DNA from: Maricaulis sp.
GTDB taxonomy: Bacteria; Pseudomonadota; Alphaproteobacteria; Caulobacterales; Maricaulaceae
Direction of reading: 5' to 3'
Assembly: GCA_017643585.1 (NCBI GenBank)
Contig: JAEPND010000003.1
Location: 186,001-250,000 of the forward strand
Length of the DNA stretch: 64,000 nucleotides
Shown: piece by piece, positions 21,870-33,425 of the stretch
Layout: every line of letters begins with the position of its first letter
Position numbering within the stretch: the first letter of the stretch is position 1
Notes under the pieces: model-generated
What the model saw: only the letters and a program-made list of their open reading frames with translations
Database searches by the model: none
Told to the model about the DNA's origin: nothing
Program-made: the position numbers and the translations under genes

Positions 21870-22712
21870 ATGACCCTGAAACCGGCATCCTCCTGGACTT
21901 CCTTTGGCGGCGAGCTGGCCGTTTTCGACCATGACAGCGCCGTATGCGGCTGCGAGATGCGCTTTGCCGTCTTCACACCTCCGCAAGCCAAGGACGGGCC
22001 GGTGCCTGTGCTCTGGTATCTGTCGGGGCTGACCTGCAACTGGTCGAATGTGATGGAGAAGTCCGGCCTGCAGCGTGTCGCCGCCGAACTGGGGCTGATG
22101 GTCATCGCGCCGGACACCAGTCCGCGCGGCGAGGCTGTGCCCAATGACGACGGCTATGATCTGGGCCAGGGCGCAGGCTTCTACCTGTCCGCCACCCAGG
22201 CGCCCTGGTCGCAGCACTTCCGCATGGATCGCTATATAACCGAAGAACTCAGTGCACTGATTGAAAAAAGCTTTGCTGCGGACATGAGCCGCCAGGGCAT
22301 TACCGGTCACTCCATGGGTGGCCATGGCGCCCTGACACTTCACCTGAAAAACCCTCAACAATTCCAATCTGTATCGGCTTTTTCACCCATCGTCGCGCCG
22401 ATGGATGTGCCCTGGGGTCAAAAAGCGCTCTCCACCTATCTCGGCGACCAGAAATCAGACTGGGAAAAACACGATTCCTGCGCCTTGGTACGCAAGCAAC
22501 CGAGCCGCGCCCACATCCTGGTCGACCAGGGGTTGGGCGATCAGTTTCTCGACCAGCAACTGCGCCCCGACCTGTTCGAAACCGCCTGCGCGGAAGCGGG
22601 ACAGGACCTCACCCTGCGACGCCATGAGGGGTATGATCATTCATACTATTTCATCGCCAGCTTCATCGAGGACCATTTGCGTCACCACGCCGCTGCATTG
22701 AATTCGCTGTGA
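21870..22712 (+). CDS. fghA: S-formylglutathione hydrolase
   Basis: Hydrolyses S-formylglutathione to formate and glutathione, the second step after the class III alcohol dehydrogenase. The 280-aa esterase-D family protein has the nucleophile elbow GHSMGGHGAL with Ser148 and the oxyanion segment YLSGLTCNWSNVMEKSG. The catalytic Asp and His fit LVDQGLGDQFLDQQL and YDHSYYFIASF. It begins 2 bp after the DUF188 stop codon, whose final codons carry no obvious ribosome site, so re-initiation is likely. Confidence 0.94.
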   Translation: MTLKPASSWTSFGGELAVFDHDSAVCGCEMRFAVFTPPQAKDGPVPVLWYLSGLTCNWSNVMEKSGLQRVAAELGLMVIAPDTSPRGEAVPNDDGYDLGQGAGFYLSATQAPWSQHFRMDRYITEELSALIEKSFAADMSRQGITGHSMGGHGALTLHLKNPQQFQSVSAFSPIVAPMDVPWGQKALSTYLGDQKSDWEKHDSCALVRKQPSRAHILVDQGLGDQFLDQQLRPDLFETACAEAGQDLTLRRHEGYDHSYYFIASFIEDHLRHHAAALNSL

Positions 22713-22877
22713 GCTGCAGCCCGTCCTCGCGCGCGCGAGCATTACAGCCCGCGAGCACGATTTTTGCGCCGTTTTTGCAACACAGCGTGCCGCGCGCACA
22801 ATTTTTTCTTTTTTGGGGTTGCAATCGCATCCCAGCCCGGTAACTGTGCAGCGCAGCAAAGACAGGAACCGGTTCTC
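22713..22877 (+). other. Intergenic region: end of formaldehyde transcript and ilv promoter region
   Basis: A 14-bp self-complementary run, CTCGCGCGCGCGAG at 22726-22739, lies just past the fghA stop, with further CGCGAG and then ATTTTTG downstream; together they may end the fghA transcript. A T-rich stretch follows at about 22802-22814. The promoter of the ilv operon must be in or near this region, but I see no convincing -35/-10 pair: TTGCAA occurs at 22775 and 22819 without a good -10 at the right distance. Confidence 0.4.
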
Positions 22878-23015
22878 ATGAACCCGAGCACGAACACCAT
22901 TCAGGCCATTGCCGTCGCCGCCCAGCCGGGCGTGCGGACGCTTGGTCTCGTGCTTATTCTTGTGGTGCTTATTACCGCCCAGATAACGGGAGCGGCGACG
23001 ACGCCTGCCATCTAG
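22878..23015 (+). CDS. ilv operon leader peptide
   Basis: A 45-codon open frame whose residues 22-32 read LGLVLILVVLI, ten branched-chain residues out of eleven (codons at 22941-22973). It is followed at once by a factor-independent terminator and then ilvD. This is the hallmark of a leader peptide whose translation senses charged Leu, Ile and Val tRNAs. The upstream sequence AGGAACCGG is a fair ribosome site. The peptide probably has no function beyond controlling transcription. Confidence 0.88.
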   Translation: MNPSTNTIQAIAVAAQPGVRTLGLVLILVVLITAQITGAATTPAI

Positions 23016-23072
23016 CGAAGCAAGACTAGGCAGACACGAAAGACCCCGCTCCCAGAAGGAGCGGGGTTTTTT
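22913..23072 (+). promoter_or_regulatory. Transcription attenuator of the ilv-leu operon
   Basis: Three pairings can be read directly. Segment 1 (22913-22921, CGTCGCCGC) pairs perfectly with 22992-23000 (GCGGCGACG). Segment 2 (22988-22995, GGGAGCGG) pairs perfectly with segment 3 (23046-23053, CCGCTCCC) as an antiterminator. Segment 3 also forms the 5' arm of the terminator 23044-23066. The pairings are mutually exclusive, as in classical amino-acid attenuators. A further hairpin (CTGC/GCAG plus CTAG/CTAG, 23005-23033) lies between. Low Leu/Ile/Val supply should stall the ribosome at 22941-22973 and favour 2:3 pairing and read-through. Confidence 0.82.
23044..23072 (+). terminator. Attenuator terminator before ilvD
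   Basis: CCCCGCTCC (23044-23052) and GGAGCGGGG (23058-23066) form a perfect 9-bp GC-rich stem with loop CAGAA, followed directly by six T (23067-23072). It is a textbook factor-independent terminator placed between the leader peptide and ilvD. Confidence 0.93.
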
Positions 23073-23096: not shown

Positions 23097-24818
23097 ATGA
23101 ACCAGCATACGCCCAAATCCTCTGACACGATCACCAAGGGTCCCGCCCGCGCCCCGGCACGCGCCATGCTGCGCGCTACTGGCATGACGGACGAGGATTT
23201 CGCCAAGCCGATGATCGGTGTCATCAATACCTGGAGCACGATCACGCCCTGCAACATGCACCTGGACAAGCTGGCGGATGCCGCACGTGAAGGCGTTCGC
23301 GAAGCCGGCGGGTTTCCGGTCGATTTCAACACGGTCGTGGTGTCCGACGGCATCACCATGGGCACCGAGGGCATGCGCGCCTCGCTGATCTCCCGCGAGG
23401 TGGTCACCGACAGCATCGAGCTGGCCGTACGCGGACACAGCCTGGACGGCATCATCATCCTGGCGGGTTGCGACAAGACCATCCCGGCCGCTGCAATGGC
23501 CCTGGTCCGCGCGGATATTCCCGGCTGCATCCTCTATGGCGGCACGATCATGCCGGGTCGCAAGGGCGACCAGGAGCTGTCCATTCAGGATGTTTTCGAG
23601 GCCGTCGGCGCTCATGCCTGCGGCTCAATCGACGATGCCGAACTGGAAGCGGTCGAGAAAGCCGCCTGCCCGGGCGAAGGCGCCTGCGGTGGTCAGTTCA
23701 CGGCCAATACGATGGCGATGATGCTGAGCTTCCTGGGTCTCTCGCCAATGGGCCTTAATGACATCCCGGCCCCTCACCCCGACAAGCCAGATGCAGCGCG
23801 CAAATGCGGCGTCCGGGCCGTCGAGCTGGTCGAAGCTGCGGTCAATCCGCGCCGCTTCATCACCCCCGAGTCGCTGCGCAATGCCGCGATCGCAGCTTCG
23901 GCCAGCGGAGGGTCCACCAATGCCGTCCTGCACCTAGCGGCTATCGCCGCAGAGGCGGGCGTCCCCTTCTCGATCGACACGTTTGACGCGGTTTCGGCCG
24001 AGGCACCGGTCATCACCGATCTGAAACCGGGCGGTCGTTTTCTGGCCCACCACATGTTCCTGGCCGGAGGCACCCGCCTGTTCGGCCAGCGCCTGATGCA
24101 GGCCGGGCGCATCGCCGACACCCCGACCGTCAGCGGCGAAAGCCTGTTCGAAGAGTTTTCGAAGGCCGAGGAAAGCCCCAACCAGCGCGTCATCCACAGC
24201 GTCGAGAACCCGGTCAAACCCGATGGCGGCTTCCGCGTACTCTATGGCGATATCGCTCCGGAGGGCGCGGTTCTCAAACTCAGCGGTCATTCCCGCACGG
24301 CTTTCGATGGCATTGCCCGCGTTTTCGAGTGCGAGGATGATGCATTCGCCGCTGTTGAAGCCAATCAAATCAAGGCCGGTGATGTCGTCATCATCCGCTG
24401 CGAAGGCCCCCAGGGTGGCCCCGGGATGCGCGAAATGCTTGCCGTCACGGCGGCGCTGGTCGGCCAGGGTCTCAGCGAAGATGTCGCCCTGATCACCGAT
24501 GGCCGTTTCTCAGGTGCCTCGAAAGGCTTCGTTATCGGCCATGTCAGCCCGGAAGCCACCGCCGGTGGCGCCATCGGCCTGTTGATGGATGGCGACCGCA
24601 TCAGCATCGATGTCGACGCCCGTCGGATCGATACGGATGCCGATCTGTCGGCGCGCCGCCGCACCATGACCACACCGCAGCCCAATCGCATGGGGGGCGT
24701 GTTCGACAAGTACGCGCACCTCGTCAGCTCCGCGTCCAAGGGCGCGGTGACCGGCCCGCCCTCTGCCCAGCCAACGACACCCAACACGACACATCGCGAA
24801 CAGGAGATTTTCGCATGA
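23097..24818 (+). CDS. ilvD: Dihydroxy-acid dehydratase
   Basis: Converts 2,3-dihydroxy-isovalerate and 2,3-dihydroxy-3-methylvalerate to the 2-keto acids in valine and isoleucine synthesis, using an Fe-S cluster. The 573-aa protein shows [42 protein letters not shown] and [26 protein letters not shown] lies 7 bp before the ATG at 23097. It is the first structural gene behind the attenuator and overlaps ilvC by 4 bp (ATGA). Confidence 0.96.
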
Positions 24819-25837
24819 CCCGCCCAACCCAGGCTCCGCGCCGGAGCGATTTCGAGATCGACACGACCGACTTCAAGTCACAAACGGTGGCGATCATTGG
24901 CTATGGCAGCCAGGGACGCGCCCACGCCATGAACCTCAAGGACAGCGGCTGCAAGGTCGTGGTCGGGGTGAGAGCCGGCGGCCAGGGCGCGGCCCGCGCG
25001 GCAGCCGACGGCCTGGACACAGCAGAGCCGGCCGAGGCGGCGAGACAGGCGGATATCGTCATGATCCTGACGCCTGACATGTCGCACGAGGAAGTCTTCC
25101 GCGAACAGGTCGCGCCCAATCTCGAGGCTGGCAACGCCTTGATGTTTGCTCACGGTTTCTCGGTCCACTTCGGACGTGTGCAACCGGCCGCGAACGTCGA
25201 CGTCATGCTGGTCGCGCCAAAGGGCCCCGGCGATCTCGTTCGCCGTGAATACGAACGCGGACGCGGCGTGCCCTGCCTGTTCGCGGTGCACCAGGACGCG
25301 ACCGGCACGGCGCGCGAGCGCGCACTCGCCTACACCTCCTGCATTGGTGGTGCAAATTCCGGCGTCATCGAGACCTCGTTCGCCGAGGAGACCGAGACCG
25401 ATCTGTTCGGCGAACAGGCGGTCCTGTGTGGCGGTGCGACCGAGCTGGTCCTGGCCGGTTACGAGACCCTGACCGAGGCCGGGTACCAGCCTGAAGTCGC
25501 TTATTTCGAATGCCTGCACGAGCTCAAGCTGATCGTCGACCTGCTTTACGAGGGCGGGCTCGGGAAAATGCATGAATTCATCTCCGAAACCGCGATCTAC
25601 GGCGATCTGCGCTCGGGTCCACGGGTGATCAATGACGAGACCCGTGCCCGCATGCGCGAAGTCCTCAAGGACATCCAGGACGGCACATTTGCCCGCGACT
25701 GGATCACCGAGAACCAGGCCGGAAAACCGCAATATGCGGCACTCCTGCGCAAGGATCTCGAACACCCGATCGAGAAGACCGGTGCGCAATTGCGCGCTGA
25801 CATGCCCTGGCTGCAGCCAGGCGCCAACGCTCACTAA
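24815..25837 (+). CDS. ilvC: Ketol-acid reductoisomerase
   Basis: Isomerises and reduces acetolactate or acetohydroxybutyrate with NADPH and Mg2+. The 340-aa class I enzyme has the Rossmann motif [20 protein letters not shown], a proton-relay [30 protein letters not shown] and the metal-binding [10 protein letters not shown] and [14 protein letters not shown] segments. It overlaps ilvD by 4 bp and precedes ilvB by 25 bp. Confidence 0.96.
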
Positions 25838-25862
25838 CCCGTCAGGCCAGGAGAACTGATCC

Positions 25863-27557
25863 ATGACCGCCCTGCCCGCAGCCGAACTGGACGCGCATTC
25901 CCGCCCTCTGATGACGGGTGCCCAAGCCGTGGTGCGGACGCTCGAGGACCTCGGCGTGCGCCGTATCTTCGGCTATCCGGGTGGGGCGATCATGCCCGTC
26001 TATGACGCGCTGGTCGGCTCGAAACTGGAACACATCCTGGTGCGCCATGAACAGGCGGCGAGCTTTGCCGCCGACGCGCAGGCGCGCCTGACCGGCAAGG
26101 CCGGCGTTTGCCTAGCGACCTCCGGTCCCGGCGCGACCAATCTGCTGACCGGCATCGCCAATGCCTACATGGACAGCGTGCCCATGGTCATCCTGACCGG
26201 ACAGGTTCCTTCGACCCTGATGGGCACAGACGCCTTCCAGGAAGTCGACGTGTTCGGGATGAGCCTGCCGGTCGTCAAACACTCCATGATCGTGCGTCAT
26301 GCCGAGGACATTCCGGCCACCATCCGCGAGGCCTTCGAAATCGCCGAGGAAGGTCGACCCGGCCCGGTCCTCGTCGATCTGCCCAAGGATACGCTGCAGG
26401 CGAACATGGCGTTCGACAGCGGCGAAGCCGACGCGGCACCGACCGTGACACGCGCAGACGCTGACAGCATCGAAGCGGCAATGAGCCTGATCCAGGCGGC
26501 CCGCCGCCCGGTCCTGTACATGGGCGGTGGCATTGCCCTGGGCGAGGCGGTCGACGCTGTCCGTGACTTCATGGCCCGCACCGGCATCCCGACCGTGGCC
26601 ACGCTGAAAGCCATTGGCTGCGCTCATCCGGACGCCCAGAACTATCTCGGCATGCTGGGCATGCACGGAACCCGCGCCGCGAACATGGCCGTCCAGGAGA
26701 GTGATCTGTTGATCTGCTGCGGCGCCCGGTTCGATGACCGCGCAACCGGCAAGCCGGATCAGTTCGCCCCCCATGCCCGCATCATCCACATGGATCTCGA
26801 CCATGCCGAAATCGGCAAGCTGCGCGGCGTGGACGCAGCTATTCGCGGTGATCTGCAAGACGCGCTGGCGCGGCTGGATGCGGGATATCTGTCGATCGAC
26901 AGCTGGCGCTCCCTGTGTCGCGGCCGCAAGAAAGAGTTCGCCTTCAGCTATGACGCGCCGGGCTCAGGCATCTACGCGCCTGGCCTGTTGAAAGAGTTAT
27001 CCGAGACCGCTGGCGATGACTTCATCGCTGCCTGTGATGTCGGCCAGCACCAGATGTGGGTGGCCCAGCATTGCCGCTTCGCTCGGCCGGAGAACCATCT
27101 GACGAGCGCGGGCCTGGGCGCGATGGGCTACGGCCTGCCCGCCGGAATCGGCGCCGCACTGGAACGCCCGGACAGCAAGGTCGTCACCATCACCGGCGAC
27201 GGCTCGATCATGATGAATATCCAGGAGCTGGCGACCGCGCGTCGTTACGGCGTGCCGATCCGTATCCTGCTGCTGGATAATGCCTCGCTGGGCCTGGTGC
27301 GCCAGTGGCAGGAATTATTCTTCGACCAGAATTTCTCCGAGATCGATCTCTACGACAATCCGGACTTTGCCGAAGTTGCCCGCGCATTCGGCGTCGAAGC
27401 ATTCACCATTCACAGTCGCGACGAGGTGCCCGGTGCCATCCAGCGACTGCTCAACGCCACTGGACCGATCCTGGCGCACTGCCTGATCGACCCGCGCGAA
27501 AACGTCTGGCCGCTCGTTCCGCCAGGCAAATCCAATGCAGAAATGATGGAGGACTGA
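25863..27557 (+). CDS. ilvB: Acetolactate synthase large subunit
   Basis: Thiamine-diphosphate enzyme joining two pyruvates, or pyruvate and 2-ketobutyrate, as the first common step of branched-chain synthesis. The 564-aa protein has GYPGGAIMPVYDAL, RHEQAASFAADAQAR with the cofactor-activating Glu, TSGPGATNLLTGIANAYMDS and the ThDP/Mg motif GDGSIMMNIQELATARRYGVPIRILLLDN. GGAGAACTGATCC precedes the ATG. It is followed by a short ACT-type regulatory subunit, an arrangement like E. coli ilvGM. Confidence 0.95.
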   Translation: MTALPAAELDAHSRPLMTGAQAVVRTLEDLGVRRIFGYPGGAIMPVYDALVGSKLEHILVRHEQAASFAADAQARLTGKAGVCLATSGPGATNLLTGIANAYMDSVPMVILTGQVPSTLMGTDAFQEVDVFGMSLPVVKHSMIVRHAEDIPATIREAFEIAEEGRPGPVLVDLPKDTLQANMAFDSGEADAAPTVTRADADSIEAAMSLIQAARRPVLYMGGGIALGEAVDAVRDFMARTGIPTVATLKAIGCAHPDAQNYLGMLGMHGTRAANMAVQESDLLICCGARFDDRATGKPDQFAPHARIIHMDLDHAEIGKLRGVDAAIRGDLQDALARLDAGYLSIDSWRSLCRGRKKEFAFSYDAPGSGIYAPGLLKELSETAGDDFIAACDVGQHQMWVAQHCRFARPENHLTSAGLGAMGYGLPAGIGAALERPDSKVVTITGDGSIMMNIQELATARRYGVPIRILLLDNASLGLVRQWQELFFDQNFSEIDLYDNPDFAEVARAFGVEAFTIHSRDEVPGAIQRLLNATGPILAHCLIDPRENVWPLVPPGKSNAEMMED

Positions 27558-27560
27558 CCC

Positions 27561-27832
27561 ATGCACAATATTCGAATTCAACTCGCCGAGCGCGAGGGTG
27601 CCCTTGTGCGCCTGCTCAGCAATATCGAGCGCCGCGGTTTCATTATCGAGAGCCTGGACAAGACGGCCGCACAGGACGGCGTGACCGATATCGCTGCGCG
27701 CATCACGCCACGCGGCGAGCGCTCGCTGGACGTCCTCACACGCCAGCTTTCCCGCCTGTTCGACGTCATGGACGTCCACACCCCGATGCCGGCCCACATG
27801 GCCAGCCACGCCATGCCTCCAGGAGAGCCGTC

Positions 27833-27851
<19 letters not shown>
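27561..27851 (+). CDS. ilvN: Acetolactate synthase small (regulatory) subunit, ACT domain only
   Basis: A 96-aa ACT-domain protein (IRIQLAEREGALVRLLSNIERRGFIIESL) placed directly after the catalytic subunit, so it should be the regulatory partner that sets activity and feedback inhibition. It lacks the C-terminal half of the common ~160-170 aa IlvH/IlvN of alphaproteobacteria and is closer in size to enterobacterial IlvM/IlvN. Its last 19 bp overlap leuA, and its final ~20 residues (PAHMASHAMPPGEPSCRQPQ) look unstructured. Confidence 0.85.
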
Positions 27852-29410
<1,559 letters not shown>

Positions 29411-29419
29411 GGATTTATC

Positions 29420-30376
29420 ATGTCTATCCAGGAAACTGACTTCATCTGGCGCAATGGCGAGTTGATCGACTGGCACGATGCGCAAACCCATATCCTGAGC
29501 CACGCCCTGCACTATGGGACCTCGGTCTTTGAAGGCATCCGCGCCTACAAGACACCGCAGGGTCCACAGATCTTCCGGCTGCAGGACCACATCCGCCGCC
29601 TGTTTGACTCGGCCAAGATCTATCGCATGCCGCTGCCGTACACGCAGGGGGAGCTGGAGAAGGCCTGCCGCCATGTCGTGCGCTCGAACCGGCTCAGCGA
29701 CGCCTATCTGCGGCCGGTCGCCTTTTTTGGCTATGGCGGGATCGGTGTCATGCCAGGCAAGGCGGCCAAGGTTGATGTCGCCATCGCCGCCTTCCCGTGG
29801 GGCGCCTATCTGGGCGAGGAAGCCCTGTCCAAGGGCGTGGATTGCTGCATCTCCAGCTGGAGCCGGGCAGCCCCCAACACCATCCCGACCGGCGCCAAGG
29901 CGGGCGGCAACTACCTGTCCTCCGTTCTGATCAGCCAGGAAGCGCATGATCGCGGCTTTGATGAAGGCATCGGACTGGACGTCAACGGTCTCGTCTCCGA
30001 AGGCGCGGGAGAGAATATCTTCGTCGTCTCCGACGGTGTCATCCGCACGCCCCCGACCTCGTCCTCCATCCTCTCCGGCCTGACCCGCGATGCGGTCATC
30101 AAGCTGGCCGAGGCCGACGGGTTCGATGTGCGCGAACAGACACTGTCACGCGAAAGCCTCTATGTCGCCGACGAGATCTTCTTCACCGGCACGGCCGCCG
30201 AGATCACTCCGGTTCGCTCGGTCGACGGGCATGTTGTTCGCTGCGGCGGCCGCGGGCCGGTTGCCGAACTGATGCAGAAGCGTTTCTTCGGCCTGTTTAG
30301 TGGCGAGACGGAAGACCGCTGGAACTGGCTGACCCCGGTGCATGATGACGCGATGGAGGTTCAGCATGTCGCCTAG
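29420..30376 (+). CDS. ilvE: Branched-chain amino acid aminotransferase
   Basis: PLP enzyme that performs the final transamination to Val, Leu and Ile. The 318-aa class IV aminotransferase shows [19 protein letters not shown], the cofactor Lys in [26 protein letters not shown] and [16 protein letters not shown]. It starts 9 bp after leuA with AAGGA upstream, and its last 11 bp overlap leuC. Its place in the middle of the leu genes is unusual but clearly operonic. Confidence 0.95.
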
Positions 30377-31778
30377 AAGCCTCTTCGATAAGATCTGGGA
30401 CGCGCATATCGTGCGGGCCGAGACACCGGACACGCCGGCGACGATGTATGTCGACCTGCACCTGGTGCACGAGGTGACCTCTCCGCAGGCCTTTGCCGAG
30501 CTGGAGGACCGTGGCCTCAAGGTGCGTCGACCCGATCGCACTCTCGCGACGATCGACCATTCCACCCCGACCCTGCCGTTCAAGGCCGGCACGCCACCGC
30601 CCTATGCCACCGATGCAGCGGCAGCACAGGTGGAAACACTCTACGCCAACACCGCCCGTCATGGCATCGAACTGAATGGCTGGGAAAGTGAACACCGGGG
30701 CGTCGTGCATGTGATCGGCCCGGAACTGGGTGCGACCCAGCCGGGCATGACCATCGTCTGCGGCGATAGTCACACCGCCACGCATGGTGCGTTCGGCGCA
30801 CTTGCCTTCGGCATCGGCACGACCGAGGTGGGCCATGTGCTGGCGACCCAATGCCTGTTGCAGCGCAAGCCCAAATCTATGCGTGTCCACGTCACCGGAC
30901 GTCCAGGCCCCAACACCTCGGCCAAGGACATCATCCTCGCAGTGATCGCGAAAATCGGTGTCGACGGCGGAACCGGTCACGTTCTCGAATACTGCGGCGA
31001 TGCCATCAGTGCACTGGACATGGAAGGGCGCATGACCCTCTGCAACATGTCCATCGAGGCCGGCGCGCGCGCGGGCCTGGTCGCCCCGGACGATAAGACC
31101 TTCGCCTTCCTCAAGGGTCGCAATCGCGCCCCGCAGGGTGCTGAATGGAACGAGGCCATCGCCCGTTGGCGCGACCTCTACACGGATGAAGGCGCACACT
31201 TCGACCGGGAAGTCGTCGTCGATGTTGAGGGGCTTCGCCCGATGATCACCTGGGGCACGGCACCGGATACCGGCATTGCGCTCAACGATGTCGTCCCGGC
31301 CCATCGCAATGACAGTGACCGGAAGGCGGCGGACTATATGGGTGTCGCAGCCGGCGAGCGCGTCTCCGGCCAGAAGGTCAACCGCGTCTTTATCGGCTCA
31401 TGCACCAATTCGCGCATCTCCGATCTGCGGGCAGCCGCAAACGTCATGCGCGGGCGCGCCATCTCGCCGGGGGTCACCGCGCTCGTGGTGCCGGGCTCGG
31501 TCTGGGTGAAGGCGCAGGCCGAGGAAGAAGGCCTGGACAAGGTGTTCAAGGCGGCCGGTGCCGAATGGCGTGAAGCCGGATGCTCGATGTGTATCGCCAT
31601 GAATGGCGACAAGGGCGCACCGGGCGAGCTCATCGTCTCGACATCCAACCGCAATTTCGAGGGCCGGCAAGGCCCGGGCGTACGCACAATGCTGGCCAGT
31701 CCGGCGGTCGCGGCAGCATCGGCTGTCACCGGCCGTGTCACCGATCCGGCCAAACTCAAGGAGACGGAATATGCCTGA
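30366..31778 (+). CDS. leuC: 3-isopropylmalate dehydratase large subunit
   Basis: Large subunit of isopropylmalate isomerase, carrying the [4Fe-4S] cluster. Recognised by [41 protein letters not shown] and [10 protein letters not shown], which hold the three cluster cysteines. The ATG at 30366 follows GGAGGTTCAGC; 470 aa is the normal length. It overlaps ilvE by 11 bp and leuD by 8 bp. Confidence 0.96.
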
Positions 31779-32346
31779 GACATTTCCGATCAACAGCCGG
31801 ACTTTCAACCTGACCGGCGAGAACATCGACACGGACCAGATCATTCCGGCCCGTTTCCTGACCACAACCTCGCGCACGGGTCTGGGGCGTTTCGCCTTTC
31901 ATGACTGGCGGTTCGACGGATCCGGCTCGCCCCGCGCAAACTCGCCGCTGAGCGGGTTTGATCCCACACGCGCATCCGTCCTCGTGGCCGGACGCAATTT
32001 CGGCTGTGGCTCCTCGCGTGAACACGCGCCGTGGGCCCTACTGGATTACGGCTTCCGCGCCGTGATTTCCTGCGAAATCGCCGACATCTTTCGCTCCAAT
32101 GCGGCACGCAACGGCCTGTTGCCGATCGTCGCGCCCGAGACGGCTCAACAATGGCTGCTGGACAATCCGGGCGCCGAGGTCGAGATCGATCTGGAAGCAA
32201 CCCGTGTGACCATAGCCGGCGGGCCGGGTTTCGATTTCGACATCGAACCCTTCGCCCGGCACTGCCTGCTCAGTGGCAATGACCCGATGGGCTATCTGCT
32301 CGACCAGACAGACGAGATCCGCCAATTCGAGGAGGTTGCAGCATGA
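31771..32346 (+). CDS. leuD: 3-isopropylmalate dehydratase small subunit
   Basis: Swivelling-domain partner of LeuC. The 191-aa protein has [31 protein letters not shown] and [15 protein letters not shown], all characteristic. The ATG at 31771 follows AAGGAGACGGAAT within the last codons of leuC. It overlaps leuB by 4 bp (ATGA). Confidence 0.96.
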
Positions 32347-33425
32347 GCTGGAATATCGTGCTTCTACCCGGTGACGGCATCGGCCCGGAAGTGACCCGGG
32401 TCGCCCGTGCCGCGCTGGAACAGGCGGCGCTTCAGAACGGGATCAAGCTGAACTTCACCAGCCATGATTTTGGTGGTGCTTCGATTGATGCCCATGGCGA
32501 GCCGCTGACCGAGGACACGCTGAAGGCCTGTCAGGCTGCCGACGCCGTCTTCCTCGGCGCTGTCGGTGGTCCCAAATGGGATGACGCGCCGGAACGCCCT
32601 GAGGCCGGGCTTCTTGCCTTGCGCAAGGGACTCGGCGTGTTCGCCAATCTGCGTCCGACCAGCGTCCATCCGGCCCTGTCCGATCGCTCGCCCCTGCGCC
32701 AGGAACTGGTCGAGGGTGCGGACATGCTGATCGTGCGGGAGCTGACCGGCGGCATTTATTTCGGTGAACGTGAGGTCAGCGAAAACTCCGCCAGCGACAA
32801 ATGTACCTACAGCCGCCACGAAATTGAGCGTGTCGCCCGGGTGGCATTTGAACAGGCGCGTCTGCGGCGGGGCAAGCTGACCTCGGTCGACAAGGCGAAT
32901 GTGCTCTCAACCAGCAAGCTCTGGCGGTCTGTCGTGAGTGAGCTGGGTGCGCGGGATTATCCTGATGTCGCGCTGGATCACATGTATGTCGATGCGGCGG
33001 CCATGCATGTGTTGCGCGCGCCGCGCGATTTCGATGTCGTGCTGACCGAGAACATGTTCGGGGACATCCTGTCCGATGAAGCCTCCATGCTGCCCGGCTC
33101 GATCGGACTTCTGGGCTCGGCTTCGCTGGGCACAAACCGTCCGGGCCTGTTCGAGCCGATCCACGGATCTGCACCAGACATTGCGGGTGAGGACAAGGCC
33201 AATCCGTTCGGCGCCATTGAAAGCGCCGCACAATTGCTCGAGGCCGGTCTCGGCGAGAGCGAGGCCGCGGCCCTCATCCGGCGCGCGGTGGACCGCATGC
33301 ACGCCAACCGCGAATGGACCGGTGATCTCGGCGGAGATTTCACCTGTTCCGGGCTGGGCATGCGCCTCATTGAACAGATGGAAGCGCTCGACAACACGCG
33401 CCAGCCAGTGCTGGCGGCTAGCTGA
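32343..33425 (+). CDS. leuB: 3-isopropylmalate dehydrogenase
   Basis: NAD+-dependent oxidative decarboxylation of 3-isopropylmalate, last leucine-specific step before transamination. The 360-aa protein has LLPGDGIGPEVTR, ELTGGIYFGERE, the metal-binding ENMFGDILSDEASMLPGS and PIHGSAPDIAGEDKANP. It is the final gene of the ilv-leu operon, followed by a strong hairpin. Confidence 0.96.
   Translation: MSWNIVLLPGDGIGPEVTRVARAALEQAALQNGIKLNFTSHDFGGASIDAHGEPLTEDTLKACQAADAVFLGAVGGPKWDDAPERPEAGLLALRKGLGVFANLRPTSVHPALSDRSPLRQELVEGADMLIVRELTGGIYFGEREVSENSASDKCTYSRHEIERVARVAFEQARLRRGKLTSVDKANVLSTSKLWRSVVSELGARDYPDVALDHMYVDAAAMHVLRAPRDFDVVLTENMFGDILSDEASMLPGSIGLLGSASLGTNRPGLFEPIHGSAPDIAGEDKANPFGAIESAAQLLEAGLGESEAAALIRRAVDRMHANREWTGDLGGDFTCSGLGMRLIEQMEALDNTRQPVLAAS

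Follow-up and report, generated by a model that had tools for sequence, protein, structure and literature searches.

In Escherichia coli, the leader peptides of the ilvGMEDA, leu and thr operons carry codons for the amino acids that these operons produce, and the antiterminator and the terminator have one strand in common. Within the Alphaproteobacteria, Tarleton, Malakooti and Ely reportedly described a leader attenuator of Caulobacter crescentus ilvBN in 1994, and Vitreschak et al. are said to have dealt with an alphaproteobacterial ilvB leader peptide in 2004. According to the sources cited here, the three E. coli operons are listed as attenuated, the polymerase is paused in the trp scheme by a I:II hairpin whose region I holds the control codons, and theory holds that control codons are chosen by the selective charging of isoacceptors (PMC1183508). 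The C. crescentus ilvBN attenuator possesses a leader with tandem Ile and Val codons and a Rho-independent terminator (PMC4117421), and the alphaproteobacterial ilvB leader peptide was predicted by comparative genomics (PMC1273637). The uORFC-8-2 motif found before cysS in Rhodobacterales has its Cys control codons inside the first stem and is followed by a terminator (PMC8632094). The actinobacterial ilvB leaders are short ORFs with runs of Ile, Val and Leu that overlap the terminator; in the ilvB leader of Streptomyces coelicolor, altered codons had no effect (PMC1262725).

The locus described here is situated in a window of 64,000 nucleotides of Maricaulis sp. DNA, i.e. the whole stretch that was analysed; coordinates refer to this window, and features are on its plus strand unless stated otherwise. 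It is very probably a ribosome-mediated transcription attenuator of an ilv-leu operon, with a two-storey antiterminator and without a conserved 1:2 protector. As in the E. coli ilvGMEDA, leu and thr leaders, product codons are present in the leader and one strand is common to antiterminator and terminator. In contrast to the trp scheme as presented in the source above, no codon-containing I:II hairpin is conserved and the stop codon lies in the antiterminator loop; a further difference from the E. coli attenuators is that three operons bear a like switch sequence. With C. crescentus ilvBN, as it is described, the locus shares an alphaproteobacterial operon for branched-chain amino acids, a leader with the corresponding codons and a Rho-independent terminator, but the gene is different (ilvBN and not an ilvD-headed ilv-leu operon). 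The ilvB leader is a comparative prediction of the same kind in the same class, theirs being upstream of ilvB. The uORFC-8-2 motif is likewise an alphaproteobacterial leader ORF with control codons and a terminator, but its first stem contains the control codons, and both the gene (cysS) and the amino acid (Cys) differ. The actinobacterial leaders are similar short ORFs with branched-chain runs and a terminator, but they belong to another phylum and their runs overlap the terminator. This kind of attenuator is thus known; neither the protector-less layout nor the shared switch has, as far as could be seen, been described before, and no Maricaulis attenuator and no switch shared by ilv, thr and ilvA was recognised in the titles and abstract openings of the open-access papers listed by the searches.

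The leader-peptide ORF (22878–23015) consists of 45 codons and has counterparts in relatives. As the sequence-only reading had claimed, ten of the eleven residues in the stretch L-G-L-V-L-I-L-V-V-L-I are Leu, Ile or Val; they are encoded by the control codons CTT GGT CTC GTG CTT ATT CTT GTG GTG CTT ATT at 22941–22973. Segment 2, the 5′ arm of the antiterminator (GGGAGCGG, 22988–22995), starts 14 nt past the last control codon and is complementary to CCGCTCCC at 23046–23053. Segment 3 (23044–23053) is common to this antiterminator and to the intrinsic terminator (23044–23072), where CCCCGCTCC at 23044–23052 pairs with GGAGCGGGG at 23058–23066 and is followed by six T at 23067–23072. Both pairings had been placed at these positions from the sequence alone and both recur in relatives, a comparison that supports the original proposal of an attenuator in which 2:3 competes with 3:4. 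The same reading had noted an extra hairpin at 23005–23033, made of CTGCC (23005–23009) and GGCAG (23029–23033); the hairpin exists, but it is not separate, since it lies within the antiterminator, of which it forms the inner storey on folding. The leader stop codon (23013–23015) sits in the loop of this inner storey.

The 195-nt region folds 4.69 sd below its dinucleotide shuffles, and an 8-nt complement of the terminator 5′ arm was found upstream in just 50 of 5000 shuffles. The terminator was listed on the plus strand by separate hairpin scans; the automated terminator scan listed the minus strand and lacked the plus-strand hairpin, probably because the stem extends into the T tract. On the minus strand as well, the hairpin at 23043–23067 is followed by a T-rich stretch; it was listed there as terminator-like and may be bidirectional.

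The first gene of the controlled operon is ilvD (23097–24818), which is 95% identical to ilvD of Maricaulis sp. HCUG1439-2 (a MAG). It is followed by ilvC, ilvG, ilvM, leuA, ilvE, leuC, leuD and leuB (24815–33425), with ilvM scoring below its family cut-off. The nine genes from ilvD to leuB (23097–33425) are co-directional on one strand with overlaps or short gaps, and ilvG is the sole acetolactate synthase above the family cut-off in the window's genome (3.1 Mb). Seven of 20 regions from relatives have the eight genes other than leuA, which was not scored, in the window's order. One region (L105) ends after ilvE, more distant relatives have no ilvE match and often no ilvM match, and ilvD stands alone in L119 and without ilvC and ilvG in L120. 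Judged from the co-directional arrangement, the overlaps or short gaps and the gene order of relatives, the attenuator would govern all nine genes. A possible promoter region was marked by eye at 22800–22877, and a scan for the sigma-70 consensus upstream of the leader gave no promoter match. A GGGGTTGC block and a TTGCNNNGCAA-like palindrome were also seen by eye 5′ of the leader start codon (22800–22870 in the window); both occur at the equivalent place in many of the genus members L003–L018 and may represent a promoter element or an operator.

An ORF with at least eight Leu, Ile or Val in 12 residues was found upstream of ilvD in 37 of 40 loci, of which 30 were from relatives and ten were drawn from 39 ilvD loci; three more (L031–L033) repeat L002, L003 and L005 and are additional to the 40. 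Among the three exceptions, the Leu/Val/Ile run of L029 is shorter (6 of 12), with a terminator some 400–480 nt upstream and another ORF in between. In L028, which has leuCDB after ilvD and no ilvC or ilvG matches, a leader with four consecutive Leu and a terminator can be seen by eye. In L026, ilvD is separate from the operon and a covariance-model match lies before an apparent ilvC (by eye); in its genus-mate L201, the model match also precedes ilvC (tblastn). The leader is present in records named Citromicrobium and Alteriqipengyuania (L040, L041, L069). No such ORF was found in eight loci of other groups (L043–L045, L047–L050 and L065; by title Polyangiaceae, Proteobacteria, Omnitrophota, Corynebacteriales, Cenarchaeum, Propionibacteriales and Anaerolineae), in a comparison where L046 and L068 had no ORF at all and which left out L060, L051–L059, L061–L064, L066 and L067. 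Before the acetolactate synthase genes of 30 class-wide loci (the best-scoring 30 of 51 genomes that had a match, with L089 and L095 lacking usable upstream sequence), no comparable branched-chain leader was found by the residue-count rule, which may miss short runs. Between ilvD and the attenuator-like stretch of L121 there is a small ORF.

Covariation was scored in 27 of the 37 leaders (Maricaulis, its family and Parvularcula-like sequences), the other ten being omitted because they align poorly; the sample includes close relatives. In the outer 2:3 helix, 96.3% of cells are paired and both sides have changed in three of nine pairs; in the terminator, the corresponding values are 95.9% and two of nine. 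For 2:3 with the inner stem, the covariation score of 0.133 exceeds those of shuffles (0.082) and of slid versions (no more than 0.064); for the terminator, 0.081 compares with 0.029 in shuffles and, again, no more than 0.064 in slid versions. Other measures did not exceed their controls: further pair types were equalled by 168 of 500 shuffles for 2:3 with the inner stem and by 167 of 500 for 3:4, terminator pairs with changes on both sides were equalled by 204 of 500, and sliding 2:3 with the inner stem by +1 gave 11 both-side cells, nearly the 12 observed. Neither the leader frame nor the 2:3 pairing is absent from the relatives, and by score 2:3 (with the inner stem) and 3:4 covary above shuffled and slid versions.

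The clearest single case is L019, where segments 2, 3 and 4 are altered together. Furthermore, the GGGAGCGG motif is kept in a different reading frame in L022 and L025, which indicates that selection acts on the RNA and not on the peptide. The inner stem is paired in 74.1% of cells over the 27 sequences, with one pair changed from U-A to C-G in seven of them; each of its pairs fails to form in 1–11 of the 27, and the outer helix lacks its end pair in nine. In L007, L009 and L010 the stop codon directly follows segment 2, yet the then untranslated 5′ arm of the inner stem (GCGCCTGCC) is unchanged. Several Parvularcula-like sequences have a mismatch in the terminator and none in the antiterminator. 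In five Parvularcula-like leaders (L034, L035, L037–L039), GGACCTCC before the terminator is, by eye, largely complementary to a GGCGGTCC-like stretch after it, a pairing that would enclose the terminator and its T tract; GGACCTCC also resembles an anti-Shine-Dalgarno sequence.

A further hairpin, P1 (22915–22937, core 22919–22923 with 22928–22932 plus a lower stem), was recognised from the minimum free energy fold and from covariation directly 5′ of the control codons. In 18 leaders (17 of the genus and L014 of the same family; 13 distinct sequences), 91.5% of its cells are paired, and both sides have changed in three of nine pairs, a number reached by 26 of 500 shuffles. Its covariation score is 0.217, against 0.155 when shuffled and at most 0.154 when slid, the slid versions being 31–60% paired; further pair types do not rise above shuffles (335 of 500 equal the observed value). 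By its position, and by analogy with the role of the pause in the trp leader (PMC1183508), P1 is probably a pause or synchronisation hairpin for RNA polymerase.

The distance from the last control codon to segment 2, 14 nt in the window, is 11 or 14 nt in 28 of the 34 leaders bearing the segment-2 motif (L027, L030 and L042 have no motif match) and 8–16 nt in 33 of them, the exception, L024, being a wrong motif match. At the 8 nt of L040, L041 and L069, segment 2 would be in contact with a ribosome stalled on the last control codon. The front edge of a ribosome lies about 15 nt ahead of its P site.

From these parts and their spacing we infer how stalling, timing, pausing and read-through under starvation might proceed. 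When charged Leu-, Val- or Ile-tRNA is low, the leading ribosome would stall on 22941–22973 with its front edge 3–4 nt short of segment 2, which would remain free to pair with segment 3. The two-storey antiterminator (22988–22995 with 23046–23053, and 23005–23009 with 23029–23033) would then engage segment 3 and thereby prevent the terminator, so that the operon would be read. When amino acids are ample, the ribosome would translate across segment 2 until it meets the stop codon in the loop of the antiterminator; it would melt the inner stem, whereupon the terminator would form. P1 would probably hold the RNA polymerase until the ribosome arrives.

Folding calculations gave −28.2 kcal/mol for the antiterminator alone and −25.8 kcal/mol for the terminator alone. 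At equilibrium with segment 4 made, the terminator wins at all three ribosome positions tried (P = 1.00), so that the decision of the switch must be kinetic. At the same three positions, folding predicts the outer 2:3 helix (P 0.99–1.00) when the RNA ends at 23053 or 23058. When the ribosome was represented by masking, the outer 2:3 helix was allowed both in the stalled state and at the stop codon, and the spacing fits stalling; a ribosome that has reached the stop codon lies over the inner stem but extends no further than the border of segment 2.

The choice of control codons was compared with the window operon's own genes in 18 leaders (17 of the genus and one of the family). Leu is encoded by CTC or CTT in 113 of 116 leader codons and by CTG in one, CTG making up 65% in the operon. 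For Val, GTA accounts for 29 of 43 leader codons versus 1% in the operon, and GTC for four of 43 versus 57%; for Ile, ATT accounts for 22 of 29 versus 15%. The control codons thus avoid CTG, GTC and ATC, which are common in the operon; the window's own run has GTG, not GTA, for Val. The window's genome contains one tRNA each for the Leu anticodons TAA, CAA, TAG, CAG and GAG and the Val anticodons TAC and GAC, and tRNA-Ile was absent among its 37 tRNA matches, all of which were inspected. The bias fits the theory of selective charging, a reading that is not secure because the Ile codons shift too, though a single tRNA reads both ATC and ATT. Part of the bias may come from avoiding structure in the codon run.

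A covariance model (R1) was built from 32 leaders, all before ilvD, and spans the upstream flank of segment 2 to the T run. In 19 genomes of the genus it yielded 48 matches at E ≤ 0.05, of which 18 precede ilvD (16 of these are training sequences, matching by construction), 17 precede thrA, encoding a fused aspartate kinase-homoserine dehydrogenase, and ten precede ilvA. The other three are L241, which resembles an ordinary terminator, and two opposite-strand matches overlapping ilvD elements. Assignments outside the window's genome were made by tblastn on 27 regions (16 thrA, 10 ilvA, 1 none). In the window's genome, a second copy with Thr and Met control codons precedes thrA-thrB-thrC (L202 551–745, contig C19), its leader ending in ...SGTTMTMTSWTGGAAGVH; ilvA of this genome, a best match below the cut-off, has no such leader. 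Counted in the frame richest in the expected residues, and hence biased towards them, the 14 codons before segment 2 comprise 95 Thr, 25 Met and 22 Ile of 224 in 16 thr leaders, and 41 Ile and 23 Leu of 140 in ten ilvA leaders. Two thr and two ilvA leaders were folded, and in these the inner stem occurs in the same place with a different sequence.

Searches with R1 were extended to the order and the class with stricter filters and few candidates scored per genome, which makes absence weak. At E ≤ 0.001, 42 of 120 genomes of the order had a match, training genomes included; class-wide, two of 385 genomes had one, one of them being the window's own. Of 20 order-level matches that were fetched (five from genus members), 17 could be assigned: 11 to ilvD, three to ilvA, two to thrA and one to ilvC. 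In the remaining three (L188, L193 and L194, from another family of the order), a small protein and not an ilv gene follows the match.

The ilv, thr and ilvA switches could resemble one another through convergence on a strong GC-rich terminator, without common descent. We regard this as somewhat doubtful, if a serious possibility. GC-rich terminators look alike, the inner stems of the three switches differ in sequence, and the thr and ilvA matches score far below those before ilvD (E 2e-7 to 0.04); however, 27 of the 30 matches outside ilvD precede thrA or ilvA, though the genomes have many terminators, and both segment 2 and its closeness to the codon run recur. Tentatively, at a confidence that falls a little short of even, we propose a single reusable attenuator cassette in Maricaulis and its kin, copies of which would have been placed in front of the ilv-leu, thr and ilvA operons, with exchange of the control codons as the means of retargeting. 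Such a cassette would comprise an antiterminator of two storeys whose loop contains the stop codon, would lack a protector and, in the ilv copy, would have a separate possible pause hairpin, its codons being chosen for the isoacceptors tRNA-Leu GAG and tRNA-Val UAC.

One claim of the sequence-only reading did not withstand the comparison, namely that a first segment (CGTCGCCGC, 22913–22921) functions by pairing with GCGGCGACG at 22992–23000. This 1:2 pairing would suit a classical four-segment attenuator of the E. coli type, with a true protector that frees segment 3 in the absence of a stalled ribosome. The match is present in the window as described, is perfect over its 9 bp, overlaps segment 2 and is rare in shuffles (9 of 5000), but it was chosen after the fact. 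It occurs in two of 34 leaders, the window's own (L001) and its near-twin L002; a complement of at least 7 nt to the neighbourhood of segment 2, located 5′ of the control codons, is present in one further leader (L021), with a different 9-mer. The computed probability of 1:2 pairing is 0–0.15 over 12 folding states of the window RNA, and the control codons lie outside the pairing. With a complement in only three of 34 leaders and so low a folding probability, the odd position of segment 1 upstream of the control codons probably reflects a chance or lineage-specific match, and a classical protector is quite improbable here. Among the 34 leaders and in the folding, no conserved 1:2 protector or pause hairpin enclosing the control codons was found.

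Far less probable still than attenuation without a protector is that the leader acts mainly through its nascent peptide, through translational coupling to ilvD or as a ligand-binding RNA, and not through shortage of charged tRNA. The peptide is indeed long and hydrophobic, as such a role might have it, but the codon content follows the product of the operon, segment 2 is kept across reading frames, the conserved element is a terminator and not a masked ribosome site, and no Rfam family reached its gathering score in the leader, all of which make this explanation very improbable. The only leader family listed by the Rfam search, Thr_leader (RF00506), was rejected: its near-match (24.8 bits against a gathering score of 55) covers the window's terminator and does not indicate a threonine leader there. 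Lastly, an absence of any regulation, the terminator being the ordinary one of an upstream gene and the leader a chance hydrophobic ORF, is hardly credible. An fghA-like gene does end at 22712, about 330 nt 5′ of the terminator, but fghA was detected upstream in one of 20 regions from relatives (some 550–640 nt upstream of ilvD being visible in most), while leader, segment 2 and terminator are conserved, 2:3 covaries and a like element with different codons precedes thrA and ilvA.

The ribosome-mediated attenuator favoured here adds a case supported by covariation, for a nine-gene operon that carries the genome's sole acetolactate synthase above the cut-off. Together with the thr and ilvA copies it provides a natural set of attenuators in which a like switch is combined with different codons, within one genome and across the genus. 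This set makes testable the need for any 1:2 protector, as well as the choice of control codons by isoacceptor charging, a theory set out in PMC1183508. If the cassette reading is true, translation itself and not a 1:2 hairpin causes termination in Maricaulis and its kin, and loss of leader translation should therefore raise expression, which would be the opposite of the classical design.
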